From Limnospira fusiformis SAG 85.79 (GTDB taxonomy: Bacteria; Cyanobacteriota; Cyanobacteriia; Cyanobacteriales; Microcoleaceae), in the NCBI RefSeq assembly GCF_012516315.1, contig NZ_CP051185.1, positions 2,655,403-2,719,402 of the forward strand: a stretch of 64,000 nucleotides of DNA. The letters are read 5' to 3'. Positions 30,047 through 50,195 of the stretch are shown here, piece after piece. Within the stretch, counting starts at the first letter, position 1. Each line of letters starts with the position of its first letter. The notes under the pieces are model-generated. The model was given only the letters and a program-made list of their open reading frames with translations, did not search any database and was not told the origin of the DNA. The position numbers and the translations under genes are program-made.

Positions 30047-30438
30047 GGGGCATTACTGGTTTCGACAGGACGATCAAACCGACCTTGTGATTCAGGCCGA
30101 GAGTGAGCCTCCTCTCGAAAATCAAAGGTTCAAAAAAAATGTAAGTGCGAACAACGTCGTACCTTTCGCTCGCGTTAAAGCCGCTGTTGCTTAATAACGA
30201 ATACCTCCTATAGGTTCGAGCACTCACGGTTTGACTCCGTTAAGGACTGTGGGTTAAACCCCAACGGATGCTTCGGTTAAGCGTTCTCTGGTAGCTTAAC
30301 TGAAAAAGACTCTACTAGAGAATCCTACCGTCAGGGATAAGTGACGGTTCCCGCCCTAAGGATTAGAGGGGCTATGTCTGTGAACGAGCAGGGCGTAAAT
30401 AGTCGTTTTGGACATGGGTTCGATTCCCATATGCTCCA
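30047..30438 (+). ncRNA. ssrA: tmRNA (10Sa RNA), one-piece
   Basis: The 5' GGGGCAT pairs with the 3' ATGCTCC to close the acceptor stem; the discriminator A is at 30438 and CCA is not encoded. The T-arm reads GGGTTCGATTCCC. The tag frame runs 30147-30194 with the resume codon GCG and gives ANNVVPFARVKAAVA, close to the cyanobacterial ANN-I/V-VPFARK type. With SmpB it rescues stalled ribosomes and tags proteins for proteolysis. Its 3' end is the attachment site of the integrative element to its right; the element's copy restores the gene, so ssrA stays intact. Confidence 0.96.
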
Positions 30439-30449
30439 TTTTCAGTAAA
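30417..30449 (+). repeat. attL core (in ssrA)
   Basis: 33-bp core covering the T-arm and acceptor end of ssrA plus 11 bases beyond. Identical to 48414-48446 in the same orientation and to 46702-46734 in inverted orientation. Confidence 0.9.
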
Positions 30450-31138
30450 CCCTAGTCTAGTAGCTATCGCGCGACATTACTCGATACGATAGCTACACCC
30501 AATTACTCAAATATTACTCACAATCCATTCCTAGCACAGGATAATAATTCTGTCAACAGGATGATTACTCAGTCAACAAGCACAACTTAGTCAATCTGTC
30601 AAATATCCATACCTCCCCCCAACCAGACACCGATAGGTTAACTCCCTTGTGATACCCGTCAATGGCAAGCCTATCGGTTCGTACCTCACCATTGACTGCT
30701 ATCACGTCGGTCGTTTCCCCAAAGAGTGTTTGTTCCGGTTGGGGGGAGGATATGTTTCAAAATCAACCACGACAACAGCAGAAGATAATTCCCCAAGCTA
30801 TCAATGTACAAAGATATCAGACCGCCTTTCCGTGGACTAGACCTATAGGTAAACCTATGTGCGATCGCAAAATCTAAATCATCTCCTACCGGATCCAACC
30901 CGATACCCCTAAACAACTTTTCAACTGGTGACAATTACCGAGATGGGAATCGATACCCACATAATCCTTAGCAAGTCTCTAGTCTTTGGTGGTAATCACC
31001 CCGTGCGGAAACCGATACCAACATAATCAGTTCACCCCCAAAATCTTAGCCGTAGGTTGTAGGTAAAGCTATCTGTTGGGGGTAACTTAGTTCTGGGTAA
31101 TATCTGGACATGATAGGGTAGGCATTCATATAAATCAT

Positions 31139-31220
31139 TTACACTCCTGTACTGCAGGAGTGTAACGGGGTAGGCTCAATGATTTTTTAACATTCTACAC
31201 TCCTGTAATACAGGAGTGTA
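31139..31220. repeat. Two tandem long-stem palindromes, left arm
   Basis: TTACACTCCTG-TACTG-CAGGAGTGTAA (31139-31165) and TACACTCCTGT-AAT-ACAGGAGTGTA (31196-31220), both with perfect 11-bp stems and nearly the same arm sequence. They occupy the same place as the unrelated palindrome pair in the right arm (45941-45970). Confidence 0.8.
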
Positions 31221-31238
31221 TTCAAAAAATACATAGAC

Positions 31239-31267
31239 ACCCCCTACAGTCAGAAACCATAGGGGGT
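31239..31267 (-). terminator. Shared hairpin ending the leftward operon
   Basis: ACCCCCTA (31239-31246) and TAGGGGGT (31260-31267) with a 13-base loop, just beyond the stop of the last leftward gene. The same hairpin with the same loop follows the last rightward gene at 45896-45924, so both operons end in the same structure. Confidence 0.6.
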
Positions 31268-31303
31268 CATTAAGTTATTGGGGTAGCTGTTAGGCGTTAG
31301 GGC

Positions 31304-31633
31304 TTACGCCAACTTGGGGTTGCACCGATAAAACATAGCTATAGCAGCCTGTTGAATCTTCTCATTGGTAGTCTGGTCAGATTTTCCGATATAGATATGG
31401 TGGTTGATTTTACCGTCCCAACCTTTCAGATTCCAGTATGCAAAGCCATTGATTGACGTTTTTTTGCAAGCTGTAAACCTTTTGCCGTTTAACTCAACCG
31501 AAAATGACTTGTTTTTTCTCAGGTAGTTAAACCACTCAGGCGTATCTAGTTCTACACAAGTTCCACCATAACCCAGCAGAAAATTGCTGAAATTTCCAGT
31601 ATGTAGGCTGATTACTGGCAATAACTTAGGCAT
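31304..31633 (-). CDS. Small protein of unknown function, last gene of leftward operon
   Basis: About 109 residues from ATG 31633 (MPKLLPVISLHTGNF); the frame is open farther upstream but there overlaps the preceding gene, whose stop (AATGCCTAA) contains this ATG, suggesting translational coupling. Middle part: VELDTPEWFNYLRKNKSFSV and WNLKGWDGKINHHIYIGKS. The YIGKS segment recalls a small module found in various cyanobacterial mobile-element proteins, but I cannot name a family. Confidence 0.55.
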   Translation of the reverse strand: MPKLLPVISLHTGNFSNFLLGYGGTCVELDTPEWFNYLRKNKSFSVELNGKRFTACKKTSINGFAYWNLKGWDGKINHHIYIGKSDQTTNEKIQQAAIAMFYRCNPKLA

Positions 31634-31898
31634 TGAAGTCACCCCCCATAAAGATATCGCTACTGTAACCATTGCCACTAAAGTCGGGCATAAATGATGC
31701 TGGCTGAATAACTGTCTCTTGAGACGATACCCACTTTTCTTGTACCGCCATAAAATCAACAGCGGCGTTATGGGCGATTTCGGCTAATTTCACCCTGGTA
31801 TCTTGGTTAGCGTAGGGGATATCTCGTGACATCATTTGGGCGTAAATATCACGTGCTAATTCCGCGACAACCATCAACCTTGCTTGTTCTTCGTTCAT
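31626..31898 (-). CDS. Hypothetical 90-residue protein
   Basis: Mostly alpha-helical N-terminal half (EEQARLMVVAELARDIYAQM), flexible Gly/Ser/Asp-rich C-terminus. Unknown function. Its stop overlaps the start of the next gene by a few bases. Conservation cannot be judged from one sequence. Confidence 0.5.
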   Translation of the reverse strand: MNEEQARLMVVAELARDIYAQMMSRDIPYANQDTRVKLAEIAHNAAVDFMAVQEKWVSSQETVIQPASFMPDFSGNGYSSDIFMGGDFNA

Positions 31899-31960
31899 GA
31901 TATGGTTTTATCCTCTTAGTGTGTTGTTTGCCGTAGTTTACCGTCATTGCGGACGAATAT

Positions 31961-32170
31961 TTATTGAACTTTATCCATTAAGTGTTTCGTGTAATTCAGC
32001 TCCTTAATCAGCAATTGCTTTTTAAGTTCAGTAATGGTTAATTCTGTTTCACAGTCGTCTAGTATTGACTTTAATGTTGCCAAACCCTCTTCTTTGTTGC
32101 TGTTGTAAACTAGACTATCTACCATAGTCTTAAACTTTACAAACATTTGATTATTGATATCTGTCATCAT
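31961..32170 (-). CDS. Hypothetical 69-residue helical protein
   Basis: Leu/Lys/Glu-rich with a probable coiled coil across about residues 25-65 (LATLKSILDDCETELTITEL). ATG at 32170; upstream TAGGAGAACAAAA supplies a Shine-Dalgarno. Between the ATPase gene and the small 3' genes of the operon. Unknown role. Confidence 0.5.
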   Translation of the reverse strand: MMTDINNQMFVKFKTMVDSLVYNSNKEEGLATLKSILDDCETELTITELKKQLLIKELNYTKHLMDKVQ

Positions 32171-32204
32171 TTTTGTTCTCCTAGGTCAATGAACTAATTG
32201 GAAG

Positions 32205-33404
32205 TTAAATGATTTGCTTCCACAGGTTTTTACCGTTAACATTCATCATGTTATAACCTCTGTTTTTCATTAAATTGGTTAATTCATTTACAGTAACCCG
32301 TGAATCTAAATAACCATCATTTTTAGCGGTTTCTATGGCTATTTTTAGCATTTTAGGGTCAATATCTGTCACCGCTTCAATTAACTCAGGACAACCTGCC
32401 TTTATCGCTTGCTCATTTTGTTTAGTTTTATTCTCAATACTTTGAGTGATAAAGCTATCTAAAAATTGTTCTGTACCGCTAGATACTGTAAATATTTTAT
32501 CTTCTGCTAACTCCCAGTAATGGTTAAATACTTTGATTGAATTATCCATTGATGATTTATATATCATTGAATGTGTAGCGATTACATCAATGGATAATCT
32601 GTAGTTAGCTATATCTTGTTTCCTTTTTTGTAGTCCTCTTTTGGTTTGAGCATAATTAGTGCAATTATTCATATCTCTCCAAAACATTTCTAAGCGAGAT
32701 GATATCTTACCAAGATTTATATCCTCAATATCCGAAAGTTCTGACAATTCAAATTGATTACCTGCATATTCTTCACTTGTCATTGATTGTCTATTTTTAA
32801 ACCACATAGGAAACATACGGCGTTTTAATTCATTAAGTTCCCAAAACGTCCATAAAGGATGTATTGAATTAATTACTTTTAAAGCGAAAGCATTAAAAAT
32901 CATGTTTTGACCGGGTGTTTGACTACTAATTGTTATTCGGCTATTTTTCCTGTTGAAGACTTTAAACAGTGAAAGCATATTTTCATTTTCAATTAATAAA
33001 TTGGGGGTGATATCTTCCCAGACCAATAAAAAATTACGTTCAAACTCACTCCGTAATGGGTCGTAATATCTTTCTTGTTGTATCTTGTTTCTCAGTGATG
33101 CAAATGTACTGTTAGCTAACACTGTGTCGGCGTTATATAGTGAAGCCGCAATAGTAGCTATCTGGCTTTTACCCGTTCCACTAGACCCCCAAAGAAACAG
33201 GCACCCAGCGGTTGACATTAGCGTGACAGGTGAGCAAATAAAGCTAGTAATAATTGGGAATTGAACATCCGGATAGGGTAGGATAGCACAAGCTCTACAT
33301 ATTGACTCTATTTGTTCACCCAATGCACCATCAACGATTATTTCCTCTAATTCATCTGCCAATGAGTCGCGTATTAGCCTATAATCTAAATAGTCCTCAG
33401 ACAT
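32205..33404 (-). CDS. AAA+/P-loop ATPase, possible replication helicase
   Basis: 399 residues. Walker A GSSGTGKS at 73-80, Walker B-like LLVWED at 126-131, and a sensor-like NSRITISS near 154-161. The arrangement fits an AAA+ or superfamily-3-like ATPase as used by small phages and plasmids to load or act as the replicative helicase. The C-terminal about 70 residues (NDGYLDSRVTVNELTNLMKNRG) look like a winged-helix end. A DNA-packaging ATPase is the main alternative. The position amid nuclease and unknown early-type genes favours replication. No primase or polymerase is visible in the element. Confidence 0.6.
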   Translation of the reverse strand: MSEDYLDYRLIRDSLADELEEIIVDGALGEQIESICRACAILPYPDVQFPIITSFICSPVTLMSTAGCLFLWGSSGTGKSQIATIAASLYNADTVLANSTFASLRNKIQQERYYDPLRSEFERNFLLVWEDITPNLLIENENMLSLFKVFNRKNSRITISSQTPGQNMIFNAFALKVINSIHPLWTFWELNELKRRMFPMWFKNRQSMTSEEYAGNQFELSELSDIEDINLGKISSRLEMFWRDMNNCTNYAQTKRGLQKRKQDIANYRLSIDVIATHSMIYKSSMDNSIKVFNHYWELAEDKIFTVSSGTEQFLDSFITQSIENKTKQNEQAIKAGCPELIEAVTDIDPKMLKIAIETAKNDGYLDSRVTVNELTNLMKNRGYNMMNVNGKNLWKQII

Positions 33405-33448
33405 GGTAGTGACCTCTTAATATGTTGGCTTGCTGTATGGTAGTCATC

Positions 33449-33466
33449 CCCCCCAATATTGGGGGG
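33449..33466. promoter_or_regulatory. Perfect 18-bp palindrome before the ATPase gene
   Basis: CCCCCCAATATTGGGGGG, about 45 bp upstream of the ATPase start, in the 76-bp gap after the preceding gene. On the + strand it is followed by AATTTTTG. It could be an operator, an intergenic attenuator or a terminator for antisense transcription. Confidence 0.4.
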
Positions 33467-33480
33467 AATTTTTGTGGTAA

Positions 33481-34218
33481 TTAGCTGAGTTTCATTAACT
33501 CAAGTAACGCGATTAGGGTATCAGCGTCCAATTTTTTAACCTTGCTGTATAGGCTATCAAAATCAGGCTCACAATCAAGAATTTTTGCTGTAGACTCAAC
33601 CCGTTCTTCCCAGGTTTTATATTTAGCCTTACCGCCAAAGCTACCATTTTTTTTACTAGTTTTTGATTCAACAAAATCAATAGCTTCTTGTACAGTGTAC
33701 CCGGCAACAGTGGACTCAAAGGTATCTAATCCTGTGCTGTATTCGAGGATAAATCGTGCTAAATCATGCTTATTCTTGGCTGATTCAAAATCATTTGAAT
33801 CAGTGGTATTATCTAATTCAAGGAGTCGCTCGGCTACCCGTGTGGCTGATTGTCCTAGATTTACAGTTCCGGTAAACATCATTTTACCGTTTGTCAGCAT
33901 AGCGTCACTTTCGACTAAATGCAGTAACGCTAATTCAACCGAAGTAGGCTTGTATTCCCGTTTTTTCCCTTGATATTCACTAGAGTACTCAGCAATACAA
34001 AAGCGTACTGCGATTAATTGCTCTTCAAATTTCCACGACCTATCATTGAAGTTCTGGAAATCACCACTTAATCCATAGCCAATAAGCCACAGGTGAGGCG
34101 ATTGTACAACAAACATAGCGCTAGTGATTTCCAAATATATTCCAGATTCTCCCGGTTTAACCGCGCTACAGAATGCGAATTTATCGTCATCTTTTTTACC
34201 GTAATATCCAATACTCAT
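33481..34218 (-). CDS. Hypothetical 245-residue protein
   Basis: The N-terminal part (MSIGYYGKKDDDKFAFCSAV) looks like a compact beta-rich domain with repeated aromatic residues; the C-terminal half is charged and helical. No family recognised. It follows its upstream neighbour with a 2-bp gap, so it is cotranscribed with the nuclease-like gene. A single-strand-binding or replication-accessory role is possible by position only. Confidence 0.55.
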   Translation of the reverse strand: MSIGYYGKKDDDKFAFCSAVKPGESGIYLEITSAMFVVQSPHLWLIGYGLSGDFQNFNDRSWKFEEQLIAVRFCIAEYSSEYQGKKREYKPTSVELALLHLVESDAMLTNGKMMFTGTVNLGQSATRVAERLLELDNTTDSNDFESAKNKHDLARFILEYSTGLDTFESTVAGYTVQEAIDFVESKTSKKNGSFGGKAKYKTWEERVESTAKILDCEPDFDSLYSKVKKLDADTLIALLELMKLS

Positions 34219-34220
34219 GA

Positions 34221-34598
34221 TTACTCTTCCTCAGTTAATTGTTGATTGTTGATTGTGTTAGGTGATTCGATTCTGGCTGCAATTTGGCGACAAGCAGCCC
34301 AAAACAGTGGATTGCCAGATAAATAGACTCGAAGTCTTGACTCCTTAACAAGTTTAACTAAGTGAGTTTGCTTGATAAGTCTAATAATTGCAGAGCCTTG
34401 ATAATCACCACGTGGTCTGTAACTACCCATTACCTGATAGGTAATATTCTTTACTTCAGGTGTTTTGTGTTCCTCAATATGTGTCAGAATTTGATAAGCC
34501 ACAATGATTGCAGTTTTATCAAATTCATGCGGATTGTAGTGAGTTTGCACAAGTTCACCATTGAGGCTAAATATGCCTTTATAGTGTAGATTTCTCAC
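34221..34598 (-). CDS. Hypothetical 125-residue protein
   Basis: Basic protein with a likely helical DNA-binding-like centre (AIIVAYQILTHIEEHKTPEV, YQGSAIIRLIKQTHLVKLVK) that could be a winged helix. Start overlaps the stop of the upstream nuclease gene by four bases (ATGA type), so translation is coupled. Function not recognised. Confidence 0.5.
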   Translation of the reverse strand: MRNLHYKGIFSLNGELVQTHYNPHEFDKTAIIVAYQILTHIEEHKTPEVKNITYQVMGSYRPRGDYQGSAIIRLIKQTHLVKLVKESRLRVYLSGNPLFWAACRQIAARIESPNTINNQQLTEEE

Positions 34599-35008
34599 GG
34601 TTGATGTTCTCCTATTAACTTAAATTCTTGTGCTTTCAGATGTCGTTGGAACTCATCGATATTCATTAAATAAATACCTTGCCAGCGATAAGACCTGTTC
34701 CGAGTGACAAACCAAATATCTTCAATCATTCCGGGATTAAGGTAATGAAGCAATTGCATCTTGAGTTTAAAATCAGGTGTTAGCGTTCCCTTTACTTCGA
34801 TGTATTGGTTGAAAACTGGACTATAAAAGTCAGGTTTCCAAGTAATTGGTCGCCAAGGTTTCTTACCATCAACCAAAGTTAATCGGGGGTGTATTGATAG
34901 GTTGTCATCATACTTTTTGAGTAGGTGATAAACCTTGCTCTCTAATGTTGACCCAAAGTAATACCCGTCGTAGTATTGTCCTTTGGCATGATACTTGTTA
35001 ATCATCAT
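34595..35008 (-). CDS. PD-(D/E)XK nuclease, DUF1064-like
   Basis: 137 residues. Layout of a small phage-type nuclease: NKYHAKG near the start, Glu23 in STLESKVYHLL, Asp60 in WKPDFYSP, and the Glu71-x-Lys73 pair in YIEVKG. This is the PD-(D/E)XK core, and the order resembles DUF1064 proteins of phages, thought to act as Holliday-junction or recombination endonucleases. Overlaps its neighbours at both ends, typical of a compact phage operon. Activity is inferred from motifs. Confidence 0.7.
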   Translation of the reverse strand: MMINKYHAKGQYYDGYYFGSTLESKVYHLLKKYDDNLSIHPRLTLVDGKKPWRPITWKPDFYSPVFNQYIEVKGTLTPDFKLKMQLLHYLNPGMIEDIWFVTRNRSYRWQGIYLMNIDEFQRHLKAQEFKLIGEHQP

Positions 35009-35342
35009 TTATCTCCCCAAAATAAGTTTCATTATCTGGCTCTCTATCGCCGCCAGATTCAGCTTGATAAATGTTCCATTCCGCTCGATAATATTCGAGT
35101 GCCTCGTTGAGAATTTCCTCAATTTTATCTGGGTGTAATGGAATTAATTTTTTAATCATTTCTCCCAGACAATAAGCCAGAAATTCTTTATCAAACTTAA
35201 CGGCTGTTAATTGCCATTGAAGTCGTCCTCTTCCTGCATAGTTAGGAACCTTTATAGCAAACGACGTTCCCACATACATCAACGGGTCAAGTTTAATATT
35301 CCTGAGATTTAACCGCACTTCTTTCCAGTGCTTTGATATCAT
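34998..35342 (-). CDS. Hypothetical 114-residue protein
   Basis: Helical protein with an acidic C-terminus (EPDNETYFGEINDD). No recognisable domain. Its 3' end overlaps the nuclease gene by 11 bp. ATG at 35342; the region between it and 35406 holds a hairpin. Confidence 0.5.
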   Translation of the reverse strand: MISKHWKEVRLNLRNIKLDPLMYVGTSFAIKVPNYAGRGRLQWQLTAVKFDKEFLAYCLGEMIKKLIPLHPDKIEEILNEALEYYRAEWNIYQAESGGDREPDNETYFGEINDD

Positions 35343-35370
35343 GGTGATAGTCCTCGATGTTTGGTGTATT

Positions 35371-35400
35371 GGCTACCTTTTCACGGGTAGCCTTTTTTTT
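35371..35400 (+). terminator. Strong hairpin with T-run, opposite to the operon
   Basis: GGCTACC (35371-35377) pairs with GGTAGCC (35386-35392) and is followed by eight T on the + strand. It is a good intrinsic terminator for rightward transcripts, yet all nearby genes are leftward. It may stop antisense transcription; on the minus strand it lies between two genes as a plain hairpin. Confidence 0.5.
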
Positions 35401-35405
35401 GCTAA

Positions 35406-35897
35406 TTAGGCGTTAGTCTGAAGCCAATCTGAAAACGGGTCAGGGTCAGGCAATGATTCGGGCATATCAGGGTCAACATGATTATCGGAGAGATTCAAAA
35501 AGTGACCCTCCAAGGCAGCGATATCGTCAGCAATAGCACCAGAAACTTTACGTGGTATCTTGACACCACCACCAAGTTTAATCAGAGTTAGAATAGCTTT
35601 AATGCTATTCTTTAACGCGATAATCTCAGAGTAGGTTAATTCCAGATTAAAGTCCTTTTCGTCCGTTACAGATGCAAACACCAACTTTTCTTTTAATGTG
35701 TAGATAGGTGATGTTTTGGGATATGGCAGATAAGGAACTACCTGGTCAAGAAATCCGGCAAAGTTGCTGAACCTTTTTAAGATTGCCAGATATTCACTAG
35801 GTGAGAGTCCATGTGTATCCTTGGTTTTTACGCTGTCTTTGTCAAGCTGGTAAATAGCGGTATTTTGGTCTACTAATGTATTTTGGTTTTTACGCAT
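35406..35897 (-). CDS. Hypothetical 163-residue protein, first gene of leftward operon
   Basis: Basic N-terminus, a helical middle (LSPSEYLAILKRFSNFAGFL, YSEIIALKNSIKAILTLIKLG) and an Asp/Pro-rich acidic tail. Unknown. A 17-bp inverted repeat lies directly upstream of the ATG, so it might encode a regulator acting on its own operator (inference). Confidence 0.5.
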   Translation of the reverse strand: MRKNQNTLVDQNTAIYQLDKDSVKTKDTHGLSPSEYLAILKRFSNFAGFLDQVVPYLPYPKTSPIYTLKEKLVFASVTDEKDFNLELTYSEIIALKNSIKAILTLIKLGGGVKIPRKVSGAIADDIAALEGHFLNLSDNHVDPDMPESLPDPDPFSDWLQTNA

Positions 35898-35901
35898 CTG
35901 T

Positions 35902-35972
35902 CAGTGATTTTCAACTCATGGACAAAATCATTTTTCCAAAATACGATTGAGTTATTGAGTTGGAAATCACTG
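35902..35972. promoter_or_regulatory. 17-bp inverted repeat upstream of the leftward operon
   Basis: CAGTGATTTTCAACTCA (35902-35918) and TGAGTTGGAAATCACTG (35956-35972) are reverse complements with one mismatch, separated by 37 bp, immediately before the first gene of the operon. The spacing of the arms suggests a two-site operator or a leader hairpin. Confidence 0.55.
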
Positions 35973-36130
35973 TTTTTGATATTTTTTGTTGTTGATGATG
36001 ATTATTTTTAATCTAATTAATACTTATAAATACATAAGAAACATATAAGCCCAAAAAAATAAAAGAATTATTGACTTTATACCATAATTGTGAAATGTTT
36101 AAATTATCGCCACATACAACTCAAACAAAA

Positions 36131-36156
36131 GACCACTATTTTTTTATATAGTGGTC
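36131..36156 (-). terminator. Intrinsic terminator of the second leftward operon
   Basis: On the minus strand GACCACTAT and ATAGTGGTC form a 9-bp stem with an 8-base loop, followed by TTTTGTTT. It lies 30 bp after the stop at 36187 and separates the two leftward operons. Confidence 0.75.
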
Positions 36157-36186
36157 AATTCTCTTTGTCTACTTTTTGATGCTGAT

Positions 36187-36835
36187 TTATTTTTTCACAC
36201 TCTTATTGCCTTCGCTGCTAACAGGAGCATCAGCGAAAAGTTCACCCTGTACTTGGTTTGGTGCTTCACTTCTCTCAACAGTTAATTCACCCAGGTTAGC
36301 TAGGGCAAGCCCATCGCTGCTAGGAATTCTGAACATACTGTTATAGGTTCTTAATGATGCTGGCTTGATAGTAAAATAGTGAGCAAATACATATAACAAG
36401 CCACTAACAGAAACGATAGGAGGTGCTTTAATACTGATAAATCTCAGTATTTTTTCGCCTACCCGTGTTTGGGTGTATTTACGCCACTAGCCAGGATTAA
36501 CCGGAGCCTCAACAAAGAAGCGGGTGTATTCAGACTTCTTGTATGCTCTTACTCGAGTTCCTCTTAGGATATTACGTCTGTTAGCATTAGGCGTGGAAGT
36601 ATTGCTAACAGGTGGTCTCCAAATGGTTAATTCCCTAACATTGGCTGGCTCATTAGTTACTGAACTTCCACTTAAAATGTGGAGTAAAAGCATAGGCATA
36701 GGTACGCCTATTTTTGAAGTTGCATCCACTGGAACTTCAACTACTAAACTTCTGCCTAGGTGTGGACCCTTTGGCTGTTGCTAAGTTTGCTATCCAATCA
36801 TCTTTGTATTTGTTCCATGCGTCAGCTAAAGGCAT
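36187..36835 (-). pseudogene. Unknown element protein split by a frameshift and an amber codon
   Basis: ATG at 36835 with a Shine-Dalgarno (AAGGAAA) begins MPLADAWNKYKDDWIANLAT. That frame stops at 36737. One extra A in the run at 36770-36772 would explain it: removing one base joins it to GPHLGRSLVVEVPVDATSKI and on to RFFVEAPVNPG, which ends at an amber codon (36487-36489). The same frame then stays open for about 100 codons to 36187. The part after the amber repeats the pattern of the part before it (TRV, K, RF, AP), so this may be a duplicated beta-rich domain. Mutation, recoding or sequencing error all remain possible. Confidence 0.5.
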
Positions 36836-36912
36836 GATATCAGTTTCCTTTTTTCTAAATTGTCTAAATCAGGGTAGGTAAAACGATGATATTAGCGCCT
36901 ACCCGATATCCA

Positions 36913-37158
36913 TTAATCAACAAATAGCTCTGTAGCTATTACATCAATACTGCCGTCAGTAGGGTCTAAAACATCGTCTGTTGGAATTGACAATGAAACA
37001 GTTACGAGACCTGTAGCCATATTTCGGGTATAAGCAGTGACTACGGTTGCACCATCAGGATTATTACTTGCAGTAGATTGCATTCGTTGGGTTGGCTCAA
37101 TAATTTCAAGTAATTGGTTTTCCAGTGTCGCAGCGCCTAGCGTTTTCTTAGTAGCCAT
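36913..37158 (-). CDS. Hypothetical 81-residue protein
   Basis: Starts MATKKTLGAATLENQ; Thr/Ala/Asp-rich, with predicted beta strands in ATVVTAYTRNMATGLVTVSLSI. Such small beta proteins are frequent among virion decoration or core-fibre subunits, but there is no direct evidence here. ATG at 37158 with a GAGATT upstream as weak Shine-Dalgarno. Confidence 0.5.
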   Translation of the reverse strand: MATKKTLGAATLENQLLEIIEPTQRMQSTASNNPDGATVVTAYTRNMATGLVTVSLSIPTDDVLDPTDGSIDVIATELFVD

Positions 37159-37419
37159 AATCTCACCTTGATTTTATTCAATACCTAGACTATAGCAGTG
37201 TATTTGCTGATTGTGGCTGCTATGGTTCTTTCAACAGAAGCTACATATATGTAGCAGCTTTTGAGTTAAACGCGACGGTACGCTACCAATACCAACATTA
37301 CGCTAACTACCAGTTTAACCATGTCTAAGTATGTTGGTAATCTCTTTCATCGTGGATGATAGTTAGTGACTGATATGACTCAATGATTAGGTTGTAGTTG
37401 GGGGTTGATTTCCAGTTTT

Positions 37420-37800
37420 TCACTCTAACGATGTCCTCGTAGCTTTCCGTATGACATTATCAACCCAACTAGGTTTTCTCTGGAAATGTAGAGGAATTTT
37501 GACTTTGGTTTTTCTAGGGTCCTGATACATCGCCAAGACACTACCTTCACCTAAGTCGATTTTAGCTTGTTCAAATTTATCAATTAATTCCCAGTTAAGT
37601 ATTTTCACTTCACTGATATACATTTTGCTCTCTTTAATTCTTTTCGCATTTTCCCTACCGCCAAAACCTTTTCTTTCCTCGAAGGTAATAGGATACACGA
37701 TTTTAGCGTCAGTTAAATCAACTAATTGTTTACAGATATTTTCTGCCTCATTTTGACTAGATTCATTCATAAAAAACGCAAATCTTCTGCCATTACTCAT
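37420..37800 (-). CDS. Hypothetical 126-residue basic protein
   Basis: Basic, mixed alpha/beta, reads MSNGRRFAFFMNESSQNEAE. No known domain. Lies between the large 37867-39084 gene and the 81-residue protein in the same leftward operon. Confidence 0.5.
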   Translation of the reverse strand: MSNGRRFAFFMNESSQNEAENICKQLVDLTDAKIVYPITFEERKGFGGRENAKRIKESKMYISEVKILNWELIDKFEQAKIDLGEGSVLAMYQDPRKTKVKIPLHFQRKPSWVDNVIRKATRTSLE

Positions 37801-37866
37801 AGTACAAGTAACCTTAATATTCCCTTTAGTAAATGCTGATTTACTGGGTTGAGTAAATATCCTTTG

Positions 37867-39084: not shown

Positions 39085-39275
39085 TACAAAGTCCCTCTTA
39101 GTGGGTTATCGCCATCAATCAATTCGGTTTCTATCTTGATATCAGGAAAGTCTTTTTTCAGTAATTCTTGTACTTTCTTGGTTTCTTGTTCTCTAATATC
39201 ATCCGGTTTTTTCATTGAATCATATAACCGCGTTAAATCGGCTAATATGTCTTTTGCTGGGTCATTACTGTTCAC
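39084..39275 (-). CDS. Hypothetical 63-residue protein
   Basis: Acidic/basic helical protein (AKDILADLTRLYDSMKKPDD). Its last base overlaps the start codon of the downstream 405-residue gene, a coupling pattern that supports reality. Unknown role. Confidence 0.45.
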   Translation of the reverse strand: MNSNDPAKDILADLTRLYDSMKKPDDIREQETKKVQELLKKDFPDIKIETELIDGDNPLRGTL

Positions 39276-39307
39276 CTGTAAAGTACCTTGAGCGCGTAAG
39301 CAAATAT

Positions 39308-41070: not shown

Positions 41071-41144
41071 ATCAAACGACTACATGAGACCAATCAATAA
41101 CTTAGAAATATTATATAATATTACAAGATAATTGAGGACTATTC
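41071..41144. promoter_or_regulatory. Divergent promoter region between the two late operons
   Basis: Only 74 bp separate the leftward gene (start 41070) from the rightward gene (start 41145). It is AT-rich with ATTATATAATATTA at about 41107-41120, able to act as a -10 in either direction, and GAGG before the rightward ATG. Probable shared control point of the two structural-type operons. Confidence 0.5.
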
Positions 41145-41939
41145 ATGCGGGGAATTAGAAATATTGCTACGGAAATTAACGCTAGTAACTGGAATAACGC
41201 TGTAGAGTTATTTAATGGCGCAATCTTAGAAGGCTTGATAACTGATAGATTTCGTTATGATATTACTGCTTATGCCTATGTTTCTAGTTTGAACGCTAGG
41301 TGTTATATCCCTAGTATCAATCAATCACAAATACCTAAAATTTACCCAGAAGATAGTTATTACCAAAGGTGGGAAAAGAAACAAGATGTGTTACAAGGTT
41401 CTATAGACTTACAGATATTTTATTGGAACCTAGCCACAGAAAGCGGGTTAAATCTAGGTGTTATAAAACTCCCTTATTACGGGGGAATTCATACCGAAAA
41501 TTTATTAATCGAATTGATTACCAATCAAACAGAAGGGTTAGCCATAGATTCACATTCTGTATTAAAAGCTAGGTGTCTGACTCAATTACACAACAATGAT
41601 TCAATTAATATTTTTGGTATGGCAGAATACCAACTAGACACATTGCCAAAAACCCCATCACTGACCCAACCCGAAAATTTTGGGATTTCCGTAGGTAACA
41701 CACCCACCCTAATTCGTGCTGCTAATACTCACAGATATCGCTTACACCTACAGAACACGGGTAGCGTTGGGGTTTGGTTTAGTCATGGACACATCAGCAA
41801 TTGCATACCAGGTCAATGTTTATGGCTACCGCCTAACACTGCATGGGATGACGAGTTAAAATCTACTGCTAGTATCTACGGGATAACAGAGGATAGTGTT
41901 TCGCAGATTGTCGGGTTAGAGCAGACAATCACTTACTAA
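41145..41939 (+). CDS. Unknown element protein, first gene of rightward operon
   Basis: 264 residues. The C-terminal about 90 residues (HRYRLHLQNTGSVGVWFSHG to IVGLEQTI) follow the same pattern as the end of the next gene product (RNVFIKNRSNVPVHLILDP to VVEFVTVD): beta strand, N-x-S/G-x-V, PGQ/PGD and a final hydrophobic strand. Both may share a small beta-barrel domain of the kind seen in phage structural proteins. Shine-Dalgarno TTGAGG. Function unknown. Confidence 0.55.
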   Translation: MRGIRNIATEINASNWNNAVELFNGAILEGLITDRFRYDITAYAYVSSLNARCYIPSINQSQIPKIYPEDSYYQRWEKKQDVLQGSIDLQIFYWNLATESGLNLGVIKLPYYGGIHTENLLIELITNQTEGLAIDSHSVLKARCLTQLHNNDSINIFGMAEYQLDTLPKTPSLTQPENFGISVGNTPTLIRAANTHRYRLHLQNTGSVGVWFSHGHISNCIPGQCLWLPPNTAWDDELKSTASIYGITEDSVSQIVGLEQTITY

Positions 41940-41975
41940 CCGGCTACAATGGAATTATTTAGGAGGTAGGTGATT

Positions 41976-42326
41976 ATGAGTTTTTCAGTTTATAGTAGCG
42001 CTCTAAATTTAGACACTCTCAATATTACTGCTAAGATACCGGGTACTCCCGTTACAACCGCTATTAGTTTAACGGCTAATACAGTTGCCGAATTAGTGGC
42101 AGTAAAAGCTAACACAAACGGGCGTAATGTATTTATCAAAAATCGGTCTAATGTACCCGTTCATTTAATCTTAGACCCCACAAAAAATACCGTAGCTAAT
42201 GCCGCATTTTCTGTGAAGCCGGGTGATACTGTTATGCTCACTATTGGCGCTAGTAAACTACAAGCTATTGCCGAGTCTGTTGCAGATATTTCGGTAACTG
42301 TAGTTGAGTTTGTAACTGTTGATTAA
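41976..42326 (+). CDS. Small beta-rich element protein
   Basis: 116 residues from ATG 41976, nine bases after a perfect AGGAGG; a GTG at 41970 is too close to that Shine-Dalgarno. Sequence SVYSSALNLDTLNITAKIPG followed by a domain related in pattern to the end of the preceding protein. Possibly a decoration or fibre-adaptor subunit. Confidence 0.55.
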   Translation: MSFSVYSSALNLDTLNITAKIPGTPVTTAISLTANTVAELVAVKANTNGRNVFIKNRSNVPVHLILDPTKNTVANAAFSVKPGDTVMLTIGASKLQAIAESVADISVTVVEFVTVD

Positions 42327-42332
42327 ATAGTT

Positions 42333-42352
42333 GGGGGATTATCCCCCTTTTT
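42333..42352 (+). terminator. Intra-operon hairpin with T-run
   Basis: GGGGGA-TTA-TCCCCC followed by TTTTT, between the small beta protein and the fibre gene. It probably reduces transcription of the fibre relative to the upstream genes. Confidence 0.6.
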
Positions 42353-42366
42353 GAGGAATCTTTATT

Positions 42367-45229
42367 ATGACTAATTTTAATATTTACTCTAGTAGATTTG
42401 GGCAGTCAACCGATGACTTGCCAGAAGGTGAAGTCAATCTGTATTTAACCAATGAAAGGGTACAGGCAGTTATTGACTCAAATACTAATTTATTCAAATT
42501 AACTGATTTATCCTGGAATAATATTACTAATAAACCTAGCACTTTCCCCCCATCTACTCATTCCCATAGCTGGACTGAAATAACGAACAAACCGACTATC
42601 TTTGCAAGTGACTGGGCAAACGTGGCGGATAAACCAGCTACGGCAACCCGTTGGCCTACGTGGTCTGAAGTTACAAGCAAACCGACAACGTTCACGCCTT
42701 CAGCGCATACTCATGCTTGGGCTGACATTACGTCAGGTGTTCCAGCTACCGCTTCACGCTCGGCCGTCTTGGGCTGAAGTGACTTCTAAACCTACTACGT
42801 TTACTCCTAGTGCTCACAACCATGCTTGGAGTGAGATAACATCTATCCCAGCGACTGCCACTAGGTGGCCTACGTGGAATGAGGTGACAGGCTCACCAAC
42901 TACGTTCCCCCCAACACCGCATAATCATGATGCTTCTAATATTACATCTGGTATTATCGATGTTGCTAGACTCCCTGCTGCTGCGTTGATAGGGGATACC
43001 ACATACTCAGCGGGTAGTGGTTTAACTCTTAGTGGTACTACTTTCAGTTTACCAGTAGCTACCTCTGGTAGCGGTACATTTGTAACCAGTATCACCCAAA
43101 CCGCTAATGGTATCACCGCTAATCTGGGGACTCCCCCGAATACAACATATAGCGCAGGTACAGGTATATCGTTATCAGGTACAACCATTATTAACTCTGC
43201 GCCTCATCAATCCACTAACCTTTCTATTTCTGGTACAGGTGACACTCGAACAATTACAAGTTCTACTGGTACTGACGTAACTATACCTGTTGCTACAACT
43301 TCCACCGCTGGTTTAATGTCTTTGGGAGACAAGACTAAGTTAAATGGAATTGCTGCAAGCGCAAATAATTACGTTCACCCAACTACAGATGGTAATTTAC
43401 ACGTACCTGCCACTGGTACCACAAACAACGGTAAAGTACTAACTGCGGGTGCAACTGCTGGTAGTTTGAATTGGACAACATTGCCTACTGCTCCAGTCAC
43501 TTCAGTTGCTGGTAAGACAGGCGCTGTAACTTTAATTAAGGGAGATGTTGGTCTAGGTAACGTAGATAATACTGCTGACTCAGTTAAAAGTGTATCAAGT
43601 TCAGCTACATTAACTACAGCTAGAACAATTGCATTATCTGGTGCGGCTACAGGTACAGCAACCAGTTTTAATGGCAGTGCTAATATTACTATTCCTGTTA
43701 CCAGTTTAAATGCAGCTAATCTATCTGGTACTGTACCAAATGCCAGTATATCTGGTAGCTATAGTGGTATGACTAATTTAACTGGGTCAGGTACAGTAGA
43801 CTTTGCTAAATTTTTAGGTAATGCTTCGGATACTGTTAATTTACCTAGCTTTAGTTGGACTGGCGATTTAGATACAGGTATTTATCGACCTGTTGCTGAC
43901 CAGTTAGCAATCACAACTGGTGGTGTACAACGAGCTTTATTTAGTAGCGCTGGTATAACTGGTAATTTAGTAGGTAACGCTTCAACTTCAACTACACTTC
44001 AAACAGCTAGAACTATTAATGGGACCTCATTTAATGGCAGCGCTAATATAACGATAACTGCAAATACTCCAAATACATTAACAAATGGTACAGGATTAAC
44101 TGGAAATAATTTTAATGGTAGTGCTGCTACTACATGGGCTGTAGCGTATGGGACTACAGCGGGAACAGCTTGTCAAGGTAATGATAGTAGATTATCTGAT
44201 GCTAGAACACCTACAACTCATACTCATTCAAACATTACATTAACCGCAGGAGATGGTTTAAGTGGTGGGGGAACATTAGCAGCTAATAGAACAATTAATG
44301 TAGATTCAACTGTATTAAGAACCTCTGGAAATCAAACAATAACCGGAATTAAAACATTTAACATAACAAATAATCCAGTAACTTTTACGACTGATGAAAG
44401 TTTCCCCGATGGAAATATGCTTATTAATTTTAATGTTTGGAGGGGGTTTGACATACGCCGAATAGGGTCTATTGCTAGTACGGCAAGTTTAGTACTAAAT
44501 AGTAGAGTTGGAGGGAATAGCTGGGCGTTTTCTCATCAGGGAAGTTATTCTATGCGACTTGAAGCAGAGGCTAATCCTAGAGTATTTATATATCATGGTA
44601 TTAATTTTCTTGAAAGTAATGTTTGGCGAGGTGCTCCTAGCGATAGATATCCAATAGACGTATATAACAATCAAATGTATCTCATAAAAGACAACGGTCT
44701 AAGTTCGTCAAACATACATACTAGATTTCGACTAGGTGGCACAAATATTGCGTACATTAATGACAGCGGGGATTATGTCAAAGGGTCTTCGGATATCAGG
44801 TTTAAAACTGTTTTAAATGAGAATGTTAATAGCTTAGATTTAATCAAAAAATTGAATGTAATTAAATTCAAATACAATAAATTAGCAGAGTTGCATGGCT
44901 TTTGTGACAAAGAAGCCAAAATAGGATTAATCGCACAAGAAGTTCAAGAATATTATCCAGAAGCGGTTGAAGTAGTTAAAAATGACCACACAGATAGCCC
45001 TGAAGTTGACGACAAAAAAATAGATTATCTGACGATTCTTTATGAAAAATTAGTTCCTTTATTAGTGGCAGGGATTCAAGAATTGTCAGCGAAAGTAGAG
45101 TCACTAGGTAAACCCACAGCATCTACAAATGGTAATATCAGTAATTTACCGACAAGCCCTATCGGTTTAAGTGTAGGTGATTTATGGTGTGACACGGATA
45201 ACGATAATGTAATCAAGCAGGTGAGATAA
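42367..45229 (+). pseudogene. Phage fibre-like protein with S74-type chaperone end (one-base insertion)
   Basis: Starts MTNFNIYSSRFGQSTDDLPE. The N-terminal quarter has repeated fibre motifs (SHSWTEITNKPTIF, HTHAWADITSG, HNHDASNITSG); the middle is long and Gly/Thr/Ser-rich. The last about 150 residues (SSDIRFKTVLNENVNSLDLI, AKIGLIAQEVQEYYPEAV) are an S74-type intramolecular chaperone/peptidase domain, which trimerises and cleaves itself off phage fibres. One extra C at about 42761 (TCACGCTCGGCCG, where the repeat pattern expects CGCTGGCCG) splits it into 42367-42777 and a frame open to 45229. Likely receptor-binding protein of the element. Confidence 0.75.
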
Positions 45230-45585
45230 TGTCTAACAAATATGATATATCTGAAACTAATTGGTTTTTAGCTTACAACCAATATTTTATCAAAGAGGAT
45301 GATACCTCACACGGAGGTAAACGATTGCCAGATATATCAGGTAGCAAATTTGTAAGGATATTATTTGATGCAGACCAAGTTTCTACTTACTGGAAAATGG
45401 CGGGTTGGTTGAAATTTTACACATACAATGATATGAAGCAGAATATGATGGTTAAACGTGAAACTATTTGGCTAAATGAATATCAAATAATTGAATCACC
45501 ACCATATAGTAATTTTTATGCGGTATTTGACCCGTTAGAACGGATAAAATGGTTTACCCTTTATTTTTGGAGATTAATGCAATGA
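45229..45585 (+). CDS. Hypothetical 118-residue protein after the fibre gene
   Basis: Its ATG overlaps the fibre stop (TAATG). Aromatic-rich (Trp, Tyr, Phe), e.g. ISETNWFLAYNQYFIKED and VFDPLERIKWFTLYFWRLMQ. The position suggests a fibre-assembly or baseplate-like accessory protein. No known domain. Confidence 0.5.
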   Translation: MSNKYDISETNWFLAYNQYFIKEDDTSHGGKRLPDISGSKFVRILFDADQVSTYWKMAGWLKFYTYNDMKQNMMVKRETIWLNEYQIIESPPYSNFYAVFDPLERIKWFTLYFWRLMQ

Positions 45586-45845
45586 ATACAATATCAATCT
45601 GTCAAAGATTCATAATTATTGAATTAGCTTTGATAATAATTGTGGTCTTGTGTTCAGCGTATGCGATAGTCAAGGAGAATAAAATTATCGAATCAAAACT
45701 AGATTTAAACAATCAAAAGTTAGACATATTATTTGAGTTTTTTAAAAAATCGTTAGAACAAATAGCCTGTAAACAACAGTTAGGGGGCAAAAAGCAATCA
45801 CCCCATCTCCCAATCAACAGAGATGATATTGATGATGATGGTTAG
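45582..45845 (+). CDS. Small membrane protein with coiled coil
   Basis: About 87 residues from ATG 45582, which overlaps the previous stop (ATGA); the frame is open upstream but this start fits coupling. One transmembrane helix (IIIELALIIIVVLCSAYAIV) is followed by a helix KIIESKLDLNNQKLDILFEF and an acidic end. The layout (one helix, short coiled coil) resembles phage spanin/holin-type or adhesion-anchoring proteins; not assignable. Last gene before the right inverted arm. Confidence 0.5.
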   Translation: MNTISICQRFIIIELALIIIVVLCSAYAIVKENKIIESKLDLNNQKLDILFEFFKKSLEQIACKQQLGGKKQSPHLPINRDDIDDDG

Positions 45846-45895
45846 CGTAAGCCCTAACAGCCTAACAGCTAACAGATAACCCCAATAACTTAATG

Positions 45896-45924
45896 ACCCC
45901 CTATGGTTTCTGACTGTAGGGGGT
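45896..45924 (+). terminator. Shared hairpin ending the rightward operon
   Basis: ACCCCCTA and TAGGGGGT with a 13-base loop, about 50 bp after the last rightward stop. Mirror copy of 31239-31267. Confidence 0.6.
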
Positions 45925-45940
45925 GTCTATGTATTTTCCC

Positions 45941-45970
45941 AACACAGGCCTGTGTTCTCAGGCCTGAGAA
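45941..45970. repeat. Two overlapping 16-bp palindromes, right arm
   Basis: AACACAGGCCTGTGTT (45941-45956) and TTCTCAGGCCTGAGAA (45955-45970) share the core CAGGCCTG. They sit where the left arm has two other palindromes, although the flanking sequence of both arms is homologous. Confidence 0.8.
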
Positions 45971-46701
45971 CGGTTTATATGAATGCTCACCCTATCATGT
46001 CCAGATAATACCCAGAACTAAGTTACCCCTAACAGATAGCTTTACCTACAACCTACGACTAAGATTTTGGGGGTGAACTGATTATGTTGGTATCGGCTTC
46101 CGCACGAGATGATTACCATCAAAGATTGGAGACTTGCTGAGGATTATGACACCACCATTTTGTTGACGCTACCAAAGTGGTATCTGTTTAATGGGTATCG
46201 ATTCCCATCCCGGTAATTACCTCCAGTTGAAAAGCTGTTTAGGGGTATCGGGTTGGTTCTGGTAGGAGATGATTTAGATTTTGCGATCGCACATAGGTTT
46301 ACCTATAGGTCTAGTCCACGGAAAGGCGGTCTGATATCTTTGTACATTGATAGCTTGGGGAATTATCTTCTGCTGTTGTCGTGGTTGATTTTGAAACATA
46401 TCCTCCCCCCAACCGGAACAAACACTCTTTGGGGAAACGACCGACGTGATAGCAGTCAATGGTGAGGTACGAACCGATAGGCTTGCCATTGACGGGTATC
46501 ACAAGGGAGTTAACCTATCGGTGTCTGGTTGGGGGGAGGTATGGATATTTGACAGATTGACTAAGTTGTGCTTGTTGACTGAGTAATCATCCTGTTGACA
46601 GAATTATTATCCTGTGCTAGGAATGGATTGTGAGTAATATTTGAGTAATTGGGTGTAGCTATCGTATCGAGTAATGTCGCGCGATAGCTACTAGACTAGG
46701 G

Positions 46702-46795
46702 TTTACTGAAAATGGAGCATATGGGAATCGAACCTGATACATAGCCTATAACCCCTATTCTACCGTTACTTAGGTGTTACTCAAAACCGTAGTAG
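46702..46795 (-). repeat. 94-bp inverted attachment arm, left of the recombinase gene
   Basis: Exact reverse complement of 48353-48446 by eye. It contains an inverted att core (46702-46734) plus about 61 bp of recombinase-side arm sequence. Because the core is followed inward by the same sequence as the attL side (CCCTAGTCTAG), this region equals an intact, unrecombined attP in inverted orientation. Confidence 0.85.
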
Positions 46796-46822
46796 GATCT
46801 ATCAATTTGTAGCCATAAAATA

Positions 46823-46847
46823 ACCCCTAGGAGTTTAATCTAGGGGT
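46823..46847 (-). terminator. Terminator of the recombinase gene
   Basis: ACCCCTAG and CTAGGGGT form an 8-bp stem; on the minus strand TATTTTATGG follows. Lies 29 bp after the recombinase stop. Confidence 0.6.
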
Positions 46848-46875
46848 ATTAACTTATGAGATTGTAGTGGGTAAA

Positions 46876-48333
46876 TTAATCTATCTGATAAATTACCCTA
46901 AGGAATAATTTAGCTTCAGGGCTGTCAATGTCAACCCCCAAGGCAGTTAACCTTTCCAGTGCTACATTTAACGGCACGGGTAATTTAGCTACTCCTTTTA
47001 AGACTTCTAAGGTAGCGTCAATCCCCTCCGTTTTGTATTTACTCTCATTGACGATTGCGCTATGCCCCATCATTCTAGCGCGTAACTCTACTGGTACTCC
47101 ATATTTTTCACCCAACAGGTTGTACAGCCTACGAAAAGCATATTTTTGAGTTACCGGACATCCCATAGCTTTAATATGTTTACTGAATGCTACATTAAAA
47201 CCCGCAGCTACAGTCCTAGGCTGGCTTCCCTCCTTCGGGGTATATTCTGGTAATATTGGTCGCTTTAATTCCAGAAAATTAAACATTTCGGGACTAGGGA
47301 TTGGCGCTATAACCCGTCCCCCAGTCTTAATACTTACTTTCCTTCCCTCTGTATCAGTAAAGTAAGTATAATCACCCAATACTAAGTAATTATCCTGATT
47401 ATCCGGGTCTGATAGCGCTTTGATGGTTACACCATCTTCTGTTGTATAGGGTTTGGTTAAGTTAACTGCAGCCGCTATCTCGGTAGGTCTTAATCCATAC
47501 ATTACCGCCATACCGGCAACCCATAGCCAACTGTGACGGACTTCGCTTATTCTATGGCTTTTAATGGTGTAGGCTTCCTGTTTGGCACTATACCACCAAT
47601 CTTTAAAGGCATCGATACCTATACGCTGCTTAACCGTAAATCGTGTTTGTTTGGGGTTAATAGGCTCTAATTGCTTTAGTAGGTGGTCCTTATTGGGTGA
47701 TTTTTTGGCAATGGCTTTCAGGATGTAGTAACGTTCTTTGAATGTTTTGGACCCTATCAGCTCCTCTCCATTCTGTAAGGGAGTGTACAGCATAACCTTG
47801 AAACTCTCCCAAGTAGGATAATCATCCCAATTGGGGAACTGTTCAAAAAATATCTGTTTGGTCCGATGGTATGACGATAAATCACTAACAATGTCGCGAG
47901 AACGTTTCCGTCCTGTATTGCGGTTGTACCCGGCAAAATACTCATCTTCCAGTTGTTGGAATATCTCTCGGTAGGTTATCAGATTATCCTCAATCTGATT
48001 TTTTCCTAGGATAGTCGTATCATACCAGTCCCAAAATTCACTAGCGTTACTGATAGTTCCCAGAGCCTCCGCCACTAACTTAGCTTTTTTAACTCCGTCT
48101 ATCACCCCTTGGGGAGTACACTCAAGATTGGCTGTTTTGGGTAGCCGTTTTCCGGTAGGTGGCTGCTTAAACTGCAATAGCAAATTATACCTAGTCCCGG
48201 ACTTTTGCAACTTGAGTGTCACCCCTTTGGGACACTCCCCCTTAAAGTCTTGATAGGCTTTCAGGAATCTATCGTAACTCTCGTCATAGTTGCCCTTTCC
48301 CCCTACGGTAGGGATGTTAGTGGCGTTACTCAT
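46876..48333 (-). CDS. Tyrosine recombinase (integrase) of the ssrA element, XisA/XisC-like
   Basis: 485 residues. The C-terminal catalytic part shows Arg282 in GLRPTEIAA, Tyr398-x-x-Arg401 in KYAFRRLYN, His424 in MMGHS and the nucleophile Tyr433 in ESKYK. The usual HxxR box is YxxR, as I recall for the Anabaena excision recombinases XisA and XisC. The N-terminal arm-binding part begins PKGVTLKLQKSGTRYNLLLQ. It should catalyse insertion at the ssrA 3' end and excision. ATG at 48333, next to attR. Intact, and flanked by inverted att arms. Confidence 0.85.
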   Translation of the reverse strand: MSNATNIPTVGGKGNYDESYDRFLKAYQDFKGECPKGVTLKLQKSGTRYNLLLQFKQPPTGKRLPKTANLECTPQGVIDGVKKAKLVAEALGTISNASEFWDWYDTTILGKNQIEDNLITYREIFQQLEDEYFAGYNRNTGRKRSRDIVSDLSSYHRTKQIFFEQFPNWDDYPTWESFKVMLYTPLQNGEELIGSKTFKERYYILKAIAKKSPNKDHLLKQLEPINPKQTRFTVKQRIGIDAFKDWWYSAKQEAYTIKSHRISEVRHSWLWVAGMAVMYGLRPTEIAAAVNLTKPYTTEDGVTIKALSDPDNQDNYLVLGDYTYFTDTEGRKVSIKTGGRVIAPIPSPEMFNFLELKRPILPEYTPKEGSQPRTVAAGFNVAFSKHIKAMGCPVTQKYAFRRLYNLLGEKYGVPVELRARMMGHSAIVNESKYKTEGIDATLEVLKGVAKLPVPLNVALERLTALGVDIDSPEAKLFLRVIYQID

Positions 48334-48352
48334 TTTTTACTCACTTGTTACT

Positions 48353-48446
48353 CTACTACGGTTTTGAGTAACACCTAAGTAACGGTAGAATAGGGGTTAT
48401 AGGCTATGTATCAGGTTCGATTCCCATATGCTCCATTTTCAGTAAA
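48353..48446 (+). repeat. 94-bp inverted attachment arm, right of the recombinase gene
   Basis: Includes the recombinase promoter-side arm and the attR core. Together with 46702-46795 it encloses only the recombinase gene, so the 1.56-kb centre is a candidate invertible segment. Confidence 0.85.
48414..48446 (+). repeat. attR core
   Basis: Exact copy of the attL core. After it the sequence (ATTTTATCCTGACTGCG) differs from the internal copies and presumably is the original chromosome downstream of ssrA. Confidence 0.9.
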
Positions 48447-48583
48447 ATTTTATCCTGACTGCGATAACCGGGAAAAACTTAACCCGGTTATCGCATTTTT
48501 AAAAACTATTTCACTATTTCCGGTTAACCTTAGCCAGAAGAGGCTTTTAGTGGAGAATAGGGGGGTCGAACCCACCATAAAAG

Positions 48584-48648
48584 CTATAACCCTTACTCTA
48601 CCGTCACACTGATGCACTCGAAAGCGATCGCATTATTAGGAGTGAGTG
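48584..48648 (+). repeat. Inverted arm repeat left of the second recombinase
   Basis: About 65 bp that pairs, with around ten mismatches, with the reverse complement of 50131-50195. Both contain CTATAACCC, CTACCGTCA, ATGCACTC and GCGATCGCA. To its left (48550-48573) lies TGGAGAATAGGGGGGTCGAA, whose reverse complement looks like the T-arm and acceptor end of a tRNA or tmRNA, i.e. a different att core. Confidence 0.7.
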
Positions 48649-48652
48649 TAAA

Positions 48653-50070: not shown

Positions 50071-50130
50071 CCCTCAATAAATCGACAACACAATACCCTC
50101 TAGGCTAAATACTTAGGTGCCTTCATTTGG

Positions 50131-50195
50131 CACTCACTCCTAAATGTGCGATCGCTTTTGAGTGCATTAGAATGACGGTAGAATAGGGGTTATAG
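50131..50195 (-). repeat. Inverted arm repeat right of the second recombinase
   Basis: Partner of 48584-48648. It ends in GGTAGAATAGGGGTTATAG, the same arm motif found beside the first recombinase, and is cut by the group II intron, which begins at the next base. Confidence 0.7.

Follow-up and report, generated by a model that had tools for sequence, protein, structure and literature searches.

How does a chromosomal element come to carry, besides the two attachment (att) sites made by its own insertion, a further att site that lies inverted in its interior and is left uncut? The question is raised by a 64,000-nucleotide stretch of Limnospira fusiformis SAG 85.79 (contig NZ_CP051185.1, positions 2,655,403 to 2,719,402; from here on, the window), in which an element that we call E1 occupies positions 30417-48446, at the 3' end of the transfer-messenger RNA (tmRNA) gene ssrA. 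Integrative elements are usually pictured as having one attP and one direction. In E1 a tyrosine recombinase gene is bracketed by two such sites, and we write P5' for the attP at the integrase 5' end and P3' for the mirror-image copy at its 3' end. Our analysis indicates that E1 entered ssrA precisely, by the cutting of P5', with P3' left uncut, and that sister elements follow the same plan. Moreover, the cargo of these elements is found in both orientations, and integrase/att modules and cargo have been recombined with one another. E1 is one of a multi-copy family that shares its plan, not a single oddity.

The window genome (G000) is a single 6.42-Mb contig with a completeness of 99.94%, and E2, E3 and E4 are further elements of the same chromosome. 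Elements of Arthrospira sp. PCC 9108 (G001, CP066886.1) are named e01-e22, and other loci carry names beginning with L. We call the cargo-side arm of an att site armA and the integrase-side arm (P arm) armB; P1 is the attP core rebuilt from the ends of an element and P2 the core of its internal att site.

Results

An uncut att site inside the ssrA element

The ssrA gene (30047-30438, plus strand; ARAGORN and Rfam RF00023) is the integration target, and its 3' end forms the 33-bp attL core (30417-30449, plus strand), which returns as an exact direct repeat in the attR core (48414-48446, plus strand). A third exact copy, on the minus strand at 46702-46734, is the core of the internal site. A first-pass annotation of this DNA had pointed out the three cores and had read them as an element integrated at ssrA with a second, inverted and uncut att site, a reading that the tmRNA call, the repeats and an empty site all bear out. 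The empty ssrA site, proposed there as a check, is present in PCC 9108 (L162): ssrA and one core copy are followed directly by the DNA found after 48446 in the window, so that the insertion of E1, 17,997 bp from core to core, was precise. E1 therefore has what marks a tRNA/tmRNA integrative element, namely direct core repeats, one of them in the 3' end of an RNA gene, and an unoccupied site in a relative.

On the cargo side of the cores, the left armA (30450-31313, plus strand), with four TTACTC repeats within its first 200 nt, is matched by an inverted right armA (45843-46701, minus strand; repeat alignment). Together with the core, 30417-30959 and 46192-46734 form an inverted repeat of 543 nt at 99%; further in, the arms continue as blocks of 190 and 78 nt at 91%, and a gapped alignment gives 761 nt at 91.9% plus 116 nt at 85.3%. 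The alignment suggested in the first pass thus confirms the inverted arms, and the length of about 0.9 kb given there stands, while near-identity is confined to the core-proximal half-kilobase. On the integrase side, the full armB (48330-48413, plus strand) runs from the integrase start to the attR core and holds four TTACTC repeats, of which one overlaps the start codon of the integrase, whereas the corresponding arm of the internal site (46735-46795, minus strand; repeat comparison) is shortened and holds one. Core and integrase-side arm together make an inverted repeat of 94 nt at 100% (46702-46795 and 48353-48446). An attP rebuilt from the left of attR and the right of attL agrees with the internal site at all but 7 of about 604 positions, and to judge from these alignments a chance origin of the repeated att sequences is excluded. 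Since the internal copy keeps only one integrase-side repeat, the earlier description of it as a full attP was too strong.

Could this layout be an artefact of assembly, or have two nested elements been mistaken for a single one? Short-read assembly can go wrong at inverted repeats of about 1 kb, and a second integrase cassette is the immediate neighbour (48583-50195). However, the empty site is clean and lacks the element, both flanks of eight further PCC 9108 elements adjoin in the window genome, and the plan recurs in independent assemblies, that is, in the complete PCC 9108 genome and in SU2 (from a cyanobacterium outside Arthrospira). Given this recurrence, the single-contig genome and the fact that the arms are imperfect copies, an artefact, which the first pass had named as what might overturn its reading, is very unlikely, and we take it as refuted for practical purposes.

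The integrase and its arm repeats

The recombinase of E1 (type I; 46876-48333, minus strand, 485 aa) has its 5' end towards attR and no Pfam match at 0.1. Residues R282, K336, R401, H424 and Y433 are invariant in alignments of 8 and of 14 integrases, Y398 is invariant among the 8 and nearly so among the 14, and the conserved residues follow the tyrosine-recombinase order (R, K, H/YxxR, H, Y). From the familiar motif we take R282, K336, Y398/R401, H424 and Y433 to be the catalytic residues, Y398 sitting where H is usual. A structure model (predicted local distance difference test, pLDDT, 79.6; predicted template-modelling score, pTM, 0.51) was matched by Foldseek to lambda Int (E 1.1e-5), to Tn1549 Int as the second match (2e-4), and to XerA and Cre. 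A search of PDB sequences with the integrase profile gave one match, taken as spurious, and the family was settled by the fold search instead. Judged by its modelled fold and its conserved residues, the protein is a tyrosine recombinase, a lambda-like integrase with arm repeats. As a separate observation, five PCC 9108 copies (L082-L086) are interrupted at one shared codon (about 322) by an insert of about 2.6 kb, which in L082 contains a group II intron motif (RF00029, L082:10489-10567) on the strand opposite to the integrase.

In type I arms TTACTC occurs 7 to 8 times in 325 nt, where shuffled sequence gives 0.23; the arms that go with the other type of integrase have CACTC instead and almost no TTACTC. 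The asymmetry seen in E1 holds for all 15 type I elements examined, with 3-4 integrase-side repeats at P5' against one at P3', and their cargo-side arms have 3-4 at both att copies. In type I the inverted repeat ends short of the integrase start, while in E2 and SU2 it extends to it.

How constant is the plan?

The arm has 31 matches in the window genome. Integrase matches are found in 13 of the 59 genomes searched (window genome counted in), with 26 in PCC 9108 alone. We collected 35 integrase cassettes with their flanks and scored each side for armA beyond the core: armA stands only at the integrase 3' end in 29, only at the 5' end in none, on both sides in two (E1 and L082) and on neither in four. 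E1 scores on both sides because the ssrA terminator region resembles armA, and the empty site shows this region to be host DNA. As a rule, therefore, these elements keep an internal, inverted, uncut att site, and insertion cuts the copy at the integrase 5' end. The same scores speak against a flip of the 1.56-kb recombinase segment, which the first pass had thought possible and which is never seen.

SU2, which sits at tRNA-Val, follows the plan; its arms measure 528 and 106 nt and are at 100% in both cases, and its cargo has small proteins only, none with known function. Seven relatives with tRNA-delimited ends have a single attP, and three changes are required to place the twin plan on the integrase tree. 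At a tRNA-Leu gene of Lyngbya aestuarii (L159:9876-11549) lies a mini-element of about 1.6 kb, which consists of the integrase alone between inverted arms, with direct 30-bp cores.

One may ask whether the second site has any role at all, or is a neutral leftover of an attP duplication, its likeness to the first maintained solely by gene conversion between the repeats. The single-attP relatives work without a second copy, and the breakpoint common to type I suggests one old event. Yet the same plan occurs in three integrase lineages, in two genera and in most of the 35 cassettes, and the split products described below suggest recombination at P3'. Neutral duplication is the strongest of the dull rivals to the account we prefer, in which the two sites and their arms take part in recombination, but we consider it rather unlikely.

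Orientation of the cargo

Holding the integrase in a fixed orientation, we scored the cargo in 18 elements; e04 (too short once its arms were trimmed), SU2 (cargo without a match to E1) and the incomplete sequences of L081, L083 and L084 were left out. Nine cargos lie as in E1 and nine are inverted (8:8 in PCC 9108, 1:1 for E1 and E2). The cargo of E1 (31304-45845) is inverted in E2 and 98.65% identical to it over 13,966 bp, while the two integrases are only about 40% identical, so that one cargo is found with two recombinase modules. Other opposite-orientation pairs are e02/e11 (99.61% over 10.9 kb), e20/e22 (99.03%) and e05/e11 (98.98%).

In close opposite pairs the exchange points lie about 400-600 bp inside armA, which makes homologous recombination at least as likely as the integrase to have caused the flips, and for this reason we rejected integrase-driven inversion as a proven mechanism. 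Homogenised arms, for their part, would hide an integrase exchange at the core. The first-pass idea of a cargo flipping between its att sites thus holds in that both orientations occur, but the exchange points give no proof that the att sites are the place of exchange. We also observe that the exchange point between E1 and E2 (window 30859-30868) overlaps a GCGATCGC octamer, the HIP1 palindrome, which may be a coincidence.

Targets and cores

The cores sit in a GGTTNNNNNCC-like context, in the T-loops of tRNA and tmRNA genes and also at look-alike sites in other DNA. Of the 17 PCC 9108 elements with both ends available, 13 had their flanks searched against the window genome. In eight of these 13 both flanks adjoin each other there, with diverged bases between the two flanks in e13; e19 and e22 matched crosswise, and e04, e06 and e18 had no match of their own. 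The core agrees fully or almost fully with the empty site in e03, e12 and e20 and differs from it in e02, e08 and e11, so overlap mismatches are tolerated. P1 equals P2 in 8 of the 17 elements (with one mismatch in the attL of e04), and also in E1 and SU2. Where they are equal, the arms are mostly at 100% over the first 300-500 bp (e06, e12, e20), and in e01 and e03 throughout.

The circle of the yeast 2-micron plasmid (FLP/FRT) falls into two parts, separated by inverted repeats that contain the recombinase sites, and both isomers occur. Could the family be a chromosomal counterpart? The integrase would then recombine the two inverted att sites of the excised circle during replication, turning theta into double rolling-circle replication, and amplification would be followed by re-integration at many sites. 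Here, too, inverted repeats with recombinase sites would separate two portions of the circle, one with the integrase and one with the cargo; both isomers are present in the 9:9 ratio; small elements have near-perfect repeats (99.6-100%); and one genome holds 26 integrase matches. On the other hand, the exchange points lie in the arms rather than in the core, the internal site of type I is without the distal arm repeats, the cores are unlike in 9 of the 17 elements, and none of the cargo proteins searched was recognisable as a replication initiator. We therefore hold amplification by this route to be decidedly unlikely. The same low odds attach to its widest form, a self-amplifying element whose circle is inverted and multiplied, which seeds many tRNA-like sites, and whose uncut internal attP would be a standing engine of chromosome inversions in spirulina-type cyanobacteria.

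Split products and rearranged chromosomes

Several cargos have an RNA gene at either end, each gene with an armA of its own, and thus have two attL: E3 (Leu-caa/Ala-ggc), E4 (Leu-gag/Arg-tct) and L030 (Val-tac/Ala-cgc). In L125 of PCC 9108, a cargo with two attL lies between two tRNA-like genes, read as tRNA-Pro by eye, that have the same T-loop core and different anticodons. Conversely, the integrase cassettes L076 and L089 have attR on both sides, and the two attR of L089 have a single core in common, which is also that of an attL 25 kb away. The two ends of E3 have their counterparts in the window genome: in L035 the integrase has attR_Ala on its 3' side, and in L036 it has attR_Leu on its 5' side. 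These split products point to an internal attP capable of recombining with targets in the chromosome. A larger change is seen with e19 and e22 of PCC 9108 (6.43-6.60 Mb), which have opposite orientations and ends that are crossed relative to G000 5.35 and 5.55 Mb: in the window genome, the left flank of either element runs into the right flank of the other. An exchange between e19 and e22 has rearranged the chromosome there.

Cargo and neighbouring sequences

The cargo of E1 encodes a 399-aa P-loop/AAA-like protein (32205-33404, minus strand; weak family matches only), a 137-aa DUF1064 or Holliday-junction-resolvase-like nuclease (34595-35008, minus strand; Pfam PF06356 above cut-off, PHROG 190 at E 2e-13) and, from family searches, a tail-fibre-like protein with a Peptidase_S74 chaperone domain (42602-45229, plus strand). 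The cargo proteins searched include no conjugation genes. A phage or plasmid origin was tried by comparing two cargo proteins with phages and the integrase with plasmids (tblastn), by comparing cargo DNA with plasmids, and by scanning viral contigs with the integrase profile and the P-loop protein; none of these searches gave a relative.

Directly after attR stands a frameshifted type II integrase cassette (48583-50195, plus strand; open reading frames 48653-49174 and 49138-50070), flanked by inverted armB copies that are 85% identical. It also adjoins ssrA in the E1-free site of PCC 9108, and is therefore probably older than E1 at ssrA. A group II intron motif (RF00029) lies downstream of it, at window 52644-52722. 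Finally, in elements at many tRNA genes (L024-L041) armA begins with 50 bp similar to the hairpin-like DNA that follows ssrA (window 48450-48500) and that the empty site has as well, as if the family had once acquired the ssrA terminator.

Discussion

What, then, is the second site for? We think it reasonably probable that these elements form a family in which an integrase gene bracketed by its own attP and a mirror copy works in the following way. Integration, and excision as a circle, would go through P5', to which we assign this role because it alone has a complete integrase-side arm in type I. Gene conversion would keep the two att regions alike. The inverted arms would give the cargo, and likewise the integrase/att block, homologous sequence at either end, which would let the cargo invert and the blocks swap in either orientation, and a block swap would give a cargo a new integrase and new targets. 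P3' would still be able to recombine now and then with a second target in the chromosome, an event that would split the element and rearrange the chromosome.

Several points weigh against this account. The circle, its excision and the inversion are events that we infer from assembled genomes. The integrase tree is compatible with three origins of the twin plan as well as with one. Homologous recombination between elements could also make the split products. An undisturbed tRNA-Ala(ggc) attB was not found, the DNA on the attR side lying in other genera near tRNA-Gly(gcc) or near no tRNA, and we infer that this site was once contiguous. Only the two attL of the L125 pair were matched by exact pattern, their attR partners not being found in this way, and the flanks of the L130 integrase cassette gave only weak or partial matches in the window genome. 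Nor is homogenisation of the att copies universal, since P1 differs from P2 in 9 of the 17 PCC 9108 elements, and e05, with equal cores, has arms only about 88-92% alike.

How does the family compare with known systems? With tRNA/tmRNA integrative elements it shares the target at the 3' end of ssrA or tRNA genes, the direct core repeats, the integrase beside attR with its 5' end outward, and arm-type repeats on both sides of the core; it differs in the second, inverted, uncut att site between integrase and cargo and in its use of T-loop-like sites outside tRNA genes. It resembles the 2-micron plasmid in having recombinase sites in inverted repeats and both isomers, and departs from it in being integrated in the chromosome with a lambda-like integrase and arm repeats, amplification being conjecture here. 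By analogy, then, it works like a tRNA-type integrative element with the layout of an FLP plasmid. The Tn916/Tn1549 transposons tolerate overlap mismatches, so that their att cores change with the target. Such mismatches are tolerated here too (e02, e08, e11), whereas conjugation genes are not recognised and GGTTNNNNNCC T-loop-like sites are preferred.

The precedents that come closest are two, the pTN3 integrase of Thermococcus (PMC5495485) and the paired attP of CTX phage (PMC4246890). The former, likewise the integrase of a mobile element, has been tied to chromosome inversions between att sites and tested in vitro; the inverted att sites tested there are copies of tRNA genes, while here each element carries its own inverted att copy and the case is known from sequence. 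CTX phage also has two inversely oriented attP in one circular genome (attP1 and attP2), which pair in single-stranded DNA to give attP(+) and need the host XerC/XerD; here the copies flank the element's own integrase, at a distance of about 1.6 kb from each other. Might the inverted att copies of a single-stranded E1 fold back in the same way into one double-stranded attP? They could pair along the whole attP, and CTX phage provides the example. However, CTX-type elements have no integrase of their own and use dif, while E1 targets ssrA with its own lambda-like integrase and arm repeats; no single-strand replication or packaging gene was recognised in the element, and pairing is unnecessary when a double-stranded P5' is present. 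Fold-back is thus highly improbable.

The first pass had named no standard integrative element with such a layout. E1 is no lone oddity, belonging as it does to a multi-copy family. Our literature search, which covered open-licence papers in PubMed Central (PMC), brought up no paper that describes twin inverted attP in a natural element.

Returning to the account in which P5' serves integration and the mirrored arms serve exchange, the fossils of this family record the inversion of cargo, swaps of integrase modules between cargos, and rearrangement of the chromosome. They offer a testable account of how such elements may change their targets and of how Arthrospira chromosomes may have been rearranged. 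The family also supplies a natural recombinase with tolerance for T-loop-like targets, and the matched pairs of att sites on which it could be assayed.

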